From positions 124,001 to 188,000 of the forward strand of contig CALSSE010000019.1 of NCBI GenBank assembly GCA_943788935.1: a stretch of 64,000 nt of DNA, given 5' to 3'. This document shows positions 46,146 through 48,014 of this stretch, in pieces. Source of the DNA: an uncultured bacterium (GTDB lineage Bacteria; Myxococcota_A; Bradymonadia; UBA7976; VGTA01). Under the pieces are notes generated by a model, which made no database searches, had not been told where the DNA came from, and saw only the letters and a list, made by a program, of their open reading frames with translations. The position numbers and the translations under genes were made by a program. How positions within the stretch are numbered: the first letter of the stretch is position 1; the number at the start of each line of letters is the position of its first letter.

Positions 46146-47435
46146 ATGCTTGATCAAGATCAAGAATCATTGGTGGTCGGTGGACGATACCATTTGATTC
46201 GTCAGATTGGCGTCGGCGGAACAAGCAGAGTCTATGAGGCGATCCACCACCTCACTCAAGAGAGAGTCGCGATTAAAGTGATCCCTCTTCAAACAGTAAA
46301 GAGCGACACCCGTACTGTAGCGAGATTTCTTCGGGAGGCAAAGCTGTCTCAAGAGGTCACTCATGATGGGATCGTGAAGGTATTAGATGCGTGGATCGAG
46401 AAAGATGAGCGCTGTTGTCTAGTCATGGAGCTTCTAAATGGGGTCAGCTTAAGAGCAGCGCTTCGAGCAGGAGAGGTCACTCGGCTACAGGTGACGAGTT
46501 GGATATCGAACATTTTAGAGGCTCTTGAGGTCGCTCACCGCGCGGGAGTCATTCATCGAGACCTTAAACCCGAGAATATCTTTATCCATCTCCCTCTAAG
46601 AGAAGAGAAAGATACGATGATCTCATCGGAACAGTATTATTTTGATGAGCATTCAGGTCAAATGGTGCTGATCGAAAACACTGACTTCGACTTAAATAAT
46701 ACAACCTCTGAGGTGACTGAGGAGCAAGTCATTGGTCACCCCCGAGACTTTTATCGTTGTCTCAATGAGAGAAGCTCTGATGTTCAGATTAAAATTCTTG
46801 ACTTTGGACTTAGCAGAACGCTGATGGAGCCCTCTATTACTCAGTCGGGTCATTTTGTAGGAACCCCTTGGTATATGAGCCCTGAGCAAGTTTTATCGCC
46901 CAAAACATGCACTTCACAGACTGACCTTTGGTCGGTTGGGGTTATCCTCTATGAGGCACTCTGCGATGGTGTTCCTTTTCAAGGAGCTAATTTACCAGCT
47001 GTGTGTCTATCTATCAGTGAAGACGAGGTAAACCTTTCAAACATTAACAACATCTATCCTCTCGCAGTAGATCTCTGTAGTTGTATTCTTAGATGTTTAG
47101 AGAGGGATCTCTCCAAAAGGTTTCGGAGCGCAGCGACCCTTAAGTACGATCTAGACGCCGCACTTGCACAGTTTGCGAGCTGCGAGATCTCCCAAGACCC
47201 TATCGAGAGTCAACTTTACCCCACTCCCTCCACCATGACTTCGGAAGCGGTCTCAGAAAAGAAGGCTTCAATTCCTCCTGTCTTGTTAAATACTTCTCAT
47301 TCACCTGTGGATGACTCTCTCTTGTCTAGGGATGATGGGGATGACTCTCTCTTTCTGGGGATGACTCTCTCTTGTCTGAGGATGACTCTGTCTTGTCTGA
47401 GGATGACTCTCTCTTGTCTGCGGATGACTCTCTAA
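46146..47435 (+). CDS. Hanks-type Ser/Thr protein kinase, frameshifted at its 3' end
   Basis: The kinase domain (about 16-320) has a glycine loop GVGGTSRVYEA, the ATP-binding lysine in VAIKVIPL, HRDLKPEN with Asp139, DFGLSR with Asp219, and GTPWYMSPEQ. HRD and DFG are 80 residues apart instead of the usual 18 or so, because of an insertion of about 60 residues in the catalytic loop. After the domain the frame enters a 21-bp repeat array where one copy is a base short, and the frame ends at 47435 with a string of MTLSCLR repeats. The intended product almost surely continues in the frame ending at 47893 (about 582 residues). GAGGGTAT precedes ATG 46146. Confidence 0.9.
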   Translation: MLDQDQESLVVGGRYHLIRQIGVGGTSRVYEAIHHLTQERVAIKVIPLQTVKSDTRTVARFLREAKLSQEVTHDGIVKVLDAWIEKDERCCLVMELLNGVSLRAALRAGEVTRLQVTSWISNILEALEVAHRAGVIHRDLKPENIFIHLPLREEKDTMISSEQYYFDEHSGQMVLIENTDFDLNNTTSEVTEEQVIGHPRDFYRCLNERSSDVQIKILDFGLSRTLMEPSITQSGHFVGTPWYMSPEQVLSPKTCTSQTDLWSVGVILYEALCDGVPFQGANLPAVCLSISEDEVNLSNINNIYPLAVDLCSCILRCLERDLSKRFRSAATLKYDLDAALAQFASCEISQDPIESQLYPTPSTMTSEAVSEKKASIPPVLLNTSHSPVDDSLLSRDDGDDSLFLGMTLSCLRMTLSCLRMTLSCLRMTL

Positions 47436-47440
47436 AATCA
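47310..47440. repeat. 21-bp tandem repeats with a 20-bp copy in the kinase gene
   Basis: Units beginning gatgactct start at 47310, 47340, 47360, 47381, 47402 and 47423. All complete copies are 21 bp (coding DDSLLSx) except 47340-47359, which is 20 bp because ttgtct has become tttct. A 9-bp partial unit sits at 47331-47339. The short copy moves the reading frame. Confidence 0.93.
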
Positions 47441-47893
47441 AGCCTCATGGATGACATACCAAAAACGCTGAAGTTAACCTCTGATGCGATTCAAGTAAGT
47501 CTACAAGAGTTGATAGAGATCGATGGAGGCCTTTACCCTGAGTTCGAAGATGTTTTATCTTCAGAGATCGCTGATCAACCTACTCTTGTGACTCAGAGAC
47601 GATCACCCTTCTCTGCAGATCAAATCCATGTTGAGGAAGAGCCAGTAGTTGATACTCAGCAGAGCGCTTCTCAAAGTTTAGATCATCATACTTTTCATCC
47701 CCACGCTTTTGAAGTTTTACATCAAGTGCCCAGGTTCGATGAGTTCAACACAGAGTCGACGAAGATTCCATCTGTGCGTAGTCAAAAAAAATCCCGAGAG
47801 GGTCGTAAAGAAGGTGATCACTGGCTTGTAATCAGCTTATTTATCTTTGGAATCGGTGTCGGTCTACTCGTTCGAGCTTTCAAGTTATTGTAA
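47372..47893 (+). CDS. C-terminal part of the kinase gene in the shifted frame
   Basis: This frame continues the DDSLLSx repeat encoded before the frameshift and then about 140 residues of acidic linker. It ends in a transmembrane helix (WLVISLFIFGIGVGLLVRAF) three residues from the end. It has no ribosome site of its own near 47372. It is therefore best read as the lost C-terminus of the kinase, which would be anchored to the membrane by its tail. Whether the break is real, programmed or a sequencing error cannot be told here. Confidence 0.75.
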   Translation: MSEDDSVLSEDDSLLSADDSLKSSLMDDIPKTLKLTSDAIQVSLQELIEIDGGLYPEFEDVLSSEIADQPTLVTQRRSPFSADQIHVEEEPVVDTQQSASQSLDHHTFHPHAFEVLHQVPRFDEFNTESTKIPSVRSQKKSREGRKEGDHWLVISLFIFGIGVGLLVRAFKLL

Positions 47894-48014
47894 AGTGACT
47901 TGTCTCTTGATGTGTGACTTGTCTTTTGATTGATTTGTCACTTGTTCCTTGATTTGTCACTTGATCTCTATGATGTGTGAGGTGTTCCTTAATTTGTGAG
48001 TTATCTTTAATTTT
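47894..48014. repeat. Degenerate 17-20 bp repeats, intergenic
   Basis: Words such as tgacttgtc, tgatttgtcacttg and gtgtgaggtg recur about six times between the kinase gene and the aldo/keto reductase gene. The units are imperfect and of unequal length. Confidence 0.6.

Follow-up and report, generated by a model that had tools for sequence, protein, structure and literature searches.

A Ser/Thr kinase gene with a C-terminal membrane anchor is frame-broken by a one-nucleotide-short unit in a coding minisatellite

Satellites residing within the genes of prokaryotes are known to prefer unit lengths divisible by three (PMC6749651). In the phase-variable simple-sequence loci of Neisseria and Campylobacter, a repeat tract located inside an ORF is associated with a break in the reading frame (PMC5084427, PMC6321876), and among the frameshifted alleles of pe_pgrs-type genes repeat variation is mostly in frame, with a minority of changes breaking the frame (PMC12817950). 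A part of the differences reported for pe_pgrs genes represents assembly errors (PMC12817950), and assemblies are weak in repeats (PMC6868369, PMC12817950). The locus described here, which lies within a window comprising 64,000 nt of contiguous DNA from an uncultured bacterium, shares with the Neisseria and Campylobacter loci a repeat tract carrying a frame break inside an ORF, and its genome shares with the pe_pgrs genes the predominance of in-frame repeats over frame-breaking ones. The encoded protein, in turn, resembles the PknB, StkP and PknA kinases (PF00069), with which it has in common a kinase domain bearing all core motifs and, as seen in the intact relatives of the gene, anchoring to the membrane by a single helix. 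Two features define the catalytic portion of the locus:

46146-47435, + strand: Ser/Thr protein kinase ORF of 429 aa, with an intact kinase domain, a linker, and out-of-frame MTLSCLR repeats at its end (Pfam PF00069; 58% identity to the orthologue in a congener).
46590-46781, + strand: insert of about 64 residues between HRDLKPEN and DFG (alignment with the congener; kinase matches are split in two around it).

The match of this ORF to PF00069 (E=1.6e-51) scores 175.7 bits against a curated cut-off of 31.7, and its translation contains the motifs VAIK, HRDLKPEN, DFG and SPEQ. The best relatives of solved structure are Ser/Thr kinases from bacteria, among them StkP, PknA and PknB. The insert is also present, in diverged form, in the congener, and the corresponding ORF of a genome from the same family (G002) has only about 14 residues at this position. 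After a series of MTLSCLR repeats the ORF terminates at a TAA codon at 47433. Kinases that carry repeats were also sought in the literature on Myxococcota, with no relevant result.

The MTLSCLR peptide results from the reading of a tandem repeat in a frame other than the one in which the repeat begins. The array and its irregular member, both read directly from the DNA, are as follows:

47309-47433, + strand: coding minisatellite of 21-nt units, encoding DDSLLSE in the gene's own frame (absent at the congener's site).
47339-47358, + strand: frame-breaking 20-nt unit, GGATGACTCTCTCTTTCTGG (18-nt perfect repeats lie 20 nt apart).

The array opens with a 21-nt unit (47309-47329), which is followed by a 9-nt partial unit, GGATGATGG (47330-47338), that is likewise irregular, yet in frame. 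On the 3′ side of the 20-nt unit there are three further 21-nt units (47359-47379, 47380-47400 and 47401-47421) and a partial unit extending to 47433. Tandem Repeats Finder (TRF) describes the whole as 4.6 copies of a 21-nt unit with 93% match, 1% indel and a score of 162. The kinase frame encodes DDSLLS repeats up to the 20-nt unit, beyond which the same peptide repeat is carried onward by the -1 frame. Relative to its neighbours, the short unit exhibits two differences, namely the missing base and an A-to-G change close by. Perfect 18-nt repeats occupy 47336-47353 and 47356-47373, such that TGGGGATGACTCTCTCTT recurs perfectly at an offset of 20 nt. An earlier note on this DNA had described a single 20-bp copy among 21-bp units at 47340-47359, which is the same unit shifted by one base. 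Searches of the genome itself and of viral contigs revealed no further copies of the array DNA in either. A separate, degenerate repeat of 19-23 nt occurs at 47895-47980, between the end of the tail ORF and an aldo/keto reductase-like gene.

The frame that takes over from the kinase frame within the array remains open to the end of the gene and contains the following:

47345-47893, + strand: remainder of the kinase gene in the -1 frame, comprising the rest of the array, the linker and the C-terminal anchor (E=3e-19 to residues 439-618 of the congener ORF, in the same order).
47825-47881, + strand: C-terminal transmembrane helix, LVISLFIFGIGVGLLVRAF (hydropathy; the end is conserved in the congener).

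Both frames are open over 91 nt (47345-47435). The tail finishes in WLVISLFIFGIGVGLLVRAFKLL, for which the best 19-residue hydropathy value is 2.37, and the congener has nearly the same last 20 residues, ISLFIFGIxVGLLxRAFKLL. The resumption of the DDSLLSx repeat in a second frame that ends in a transmembrane helix, as the earlier note had proposed, is thus borne out by the extent of this frame and by its hydropathy, as is the termination of the 429-aa kinase ORF in MTLSCLR repeats. Domain searches with the tail frame returned no known domain; the kinase and tail frames were searched separately.

Comparison with relatives establishes that 46146-47435 and 47345-47893 constitute one gene for a tail-anchored kinase, frame-broken by a unit that is 1 nt short. 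In the congener (G001, contig CAKZRU010000150.1, an uncultured Myxococcales MAG), the syntenic orthologue is a single ORF of 618 aa with the same C-terminal anchor; it is 58% identical to the kinase ORF over 363 aa, and the downstream gene order is the same over about 14 kb. In the same-family genome, the equivalent is again a single ORF; it encodes at least 664 aa and has a hydrophobic segment at the C-terminus. The proposal in the earlier note that kinase and anchor are one protein split by the loss of 1 nt therefore holds. A scan of genome contigs for a second genome of the species returned the congener only. The 21-nt array was not found at the orthologous site in the congener, whose linker contains two 18-nt repeats of another sequence (L006:1370-1410, minus strand), and the linker of the same-family ORF (L007 ORF 1-1992) carries a third, unrelated repeat, ALHSA. 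The presence of unrelated repeats in the linkers of three genomes, with the anchor retained in each, suggests that this linker is a recurrent site of repeat birth. Moreover, the fully open tail frame and the conserved anchor argue that the break is young.

These comparisons are consistent with the following course of events. The intact gene would encode a tail-anchored Ser/Thr kinase composed of a cytoplasmic kinase domain, a variable linker and one C-terminal membrane helix. In the present lineage, the linker appears to have gained a young 21-nt coding minisatellite, within which one local duplication may have added a net 20 nt instead of 21, shifting everything that follows into the -1 frame. 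As sequenced, the gene would give rise to a kinase that is soluble, ends in a short MTLSCLR tail and does not include the anchor. The kinase would thereby be released from the membrane and, if the break is real, the intact catalytic motifs suggest that location rather than catalysis would have been lost.

How commonly arrays of this kind are broken was surveyed in 1.99 Mb (L026-L085 and L108-L147) of the source genome (G000; 5.95 Mb in 31 contigs), in which arrays were located by TRF, their coding state was assigned by HMM classification and frame changes were inspected by hand. Several same-strand frame changes flagged by the HMM were discarded as normal transitions from one gene to the next, with the array lying between them, and three ambiguous cases (C15:83158, C17:584253 and C5:68050) are not included in the count of frame breaks. 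Array density in the source genome is very high, at 295 per Mb overall and 134 per Mb for arrays with 3 or more copies and a match of at least 90%; the corresponding values for the congener, also high, are 189 and 57 per Mb. Small samples (40-100 kb apiece) from four further genomes within the same order or class contained no arrays in the latter category, and a fifth genome (G010) had 50 per Mb. Unit length is divisible by three in 245 of the 252 arrays contained in a single open frame, as compared with 59 of 158 non-coding arrays. The far higher share of triplet units in genes than in non-coding DNA suggests that arrays arise everywhere and that selection keeps the genic ones in frame.

In approximately 11 of about 256 coding arrays in the sample, including that of the kinase, small indels produce a net break of the frame, which corresponds to 11 breaks in about 35.8 kb of array, or about 0.3 per kb. 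Non-triplet indels in non-coding arrays number 8 in about 5.7 kb, or about 1.4 per kb, which is roughly four times the coding rate; the kinase array, misfiled as non-coding by the script, is excluded from the 5.7-kb figure. When coding arrays are grouped by length, frame breaks per kb amount to 0.58 (60-100 nt), 0.22 (100-200 nt) and 0.56 (more than 200 nt). Outside arrays, about three convincing frame breaks were found in about 0.97 Mb of coding sequence within the first 1.19 Mb, an approximate number read from the HMM candidates. These three (C17:187124, C17:311831 and C17:122011, one of them in an aminotransferase-like gene) provide a rough background rate.

Among the other broken arrays, that at C17:455678-455765 (L068) interrupts the ORF of a secreted Cys-rich protein with two 12-nt and five identical 13-nt units (TGATGAGGCAAGG), and the remainder of the protein, which has a hydrophobic segment at its C-terminus, lies in another frame. 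As copy number of a 13-nt unit would set the frame, this locus is a better contingency candidate than the kinase gene. In nine more coding arrays (C10:184021, C10:226658, C10:323705, C15:50023, C15:126619, C17:395885, C17:548786, C5:116872 and C19:63676) the frame is broken by one or a few off-length units, with the odd unit at C15:126619, of 11 nt, occurring twice in succession. These nine lie mostly in linkers of proteins that resemble lipoproteins, secreted proteins or membrane-anchored proteins.

Several readings of the break in the kinase gene assign it a function. A break that precisely separates an intact catalytic domain from an intact anchor, in a genome with many young arrays, is what would be expected of an array that toggles the kinase between anchored and soluble forms, and slippage loss of the odd 20-nt unit would indeed restore the frame. 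However, because the unit is 3 x 7 nt, the gain or loss of whole units can never shift the frame, and after loss of the odd unit there would be no route back. The orthologues are without such an array, and the prevalence of triplet units among genic but not non-coding arrays also speaks against a switch. The on/off contingency switch raised in the earlier note is accordingly not borne out, and we consider it quite unlikely. Programmed -1 ribosomal frameshifting within the array, which would yield soluble and anchored kinase from one mRNA, accords with the position of the tail in the -1 frame and with the 91 nt over which both frames are open. A scan of these 91 nt, however, revealed no X XXY YYZ heptamer, the best sites offering 3 of 6 re-pairing positions, and the orthologues do not need such a mechanism; this reading is the most improbable of all. 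Slightly less remote, though still very unlikely, is the existence of two working genes, in which the soluble kinase would be accompanied by a small membrane protein, perhaps still able to bind it, that is translated from the ATG at 47447 when ribosomes reinitiate past the TAA at 47433. The tail is intact and this ATG lies 11 nt past the kinase stop codon, but the sequence upstream of it (CTAAAATCAAGCCTC) contains nothing resembling a Shine-Dalgarno element, and the tail has no known domain.

The choice that matters more is between a real, recent and unprogrammed mutation inside the coding minisatellite, to which we give about an even chance, and a base lost from the consensus by sequencing or assembly error, which we rate somewhat below it as a serious but less probable explanation. 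Were the latter true, the cell would have a full-length unit and one tail-anchored kinase, as the intact and conserved tail frame and anchor would lead one to expect. Errors of this kind are documented for tandem repeats and for repeat-rich bacterial genes (PMC6868369, PMC12817950); the frame breaks of this assembly cluster in repeat arrays, at a density far above that of unique coding sequence, and in the interior of the 546-nt array at C5:116872 several single-base indels lie close together, a pattern that errors would produce. Against an error, the kinase array measures about 95-125 nt, which is within the span of one read, and the missing base lies outside any homopolymer run. Furthermore, the loss of a lone base leaves the A-to-G change unexplained, such that two changes would be needed unless the unit had already been substituted, whereas a single duplication at an offset of 20 nt accounts for both differences; we regard this as an argument, rather than proof, in favour of a real chance mutation. 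The higher rate of non-triplet indels in non-coding than in coding arrays is likewise expected if most of these changes are real and are selected against in genes, and the similar density of frame breaks in arrays of 60-100 nt and of more than 200 nt indicates that shorter arrays are affected as well as very long ones. The excess of frame breaks in arrays as such fits either higher mutation or poorer consensus.

If the break is a real mutation, the locus represents a natural experiment on a membrane kinase that has lost its anchor. On its own, a frame-broken repeat in a kinase gene matters little: the locus is ordinary, and the wider feature is the abundance of minisatellites at the level of the genus. 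Where a genome is rich in minisatellites, a few percent of the genes that contain repeats may look split, and annotation and claims of phase variation need to be checked beforehand against the reads. A more far-reaching idea is that mutation of coding minisatellites is so frequent in this genus that, at any given moment, several percent of the genes containing repeats have a broken frame, with surface and signalling proteins, this kinase included, thus being present in the population in both an anchored and a released (or an on and an off) state; we think this unlikely.

Relative to the known systems, the locus stands apart in several respects. The pe_pgrs comparison involves other genes, and the kinase locus has been seen in one genome of its species. 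The array was also considered, and rejected, as a simple-sequence contingency locus, a class in which the unit is not divisible by three: its units are 21 nt with a single 20-nt exception, and, in contrast to the loci of Neisseria and Campylobacter (PMC5084427, PMC6321876), whole-unit slippage would occur without a switch of frame. The kinase itself differs from PknB and StkP in being without a PASTA domain, its score of 218.1 bits to the PASTA-kinase equivalog NF033483 falling below the cut-off of 450. It differs further in having about 64 residues inserted between the HRDLKPEN and DFG motifs, and in the placement of its anchor at the extreme C-terminus, with almost nothing past it.
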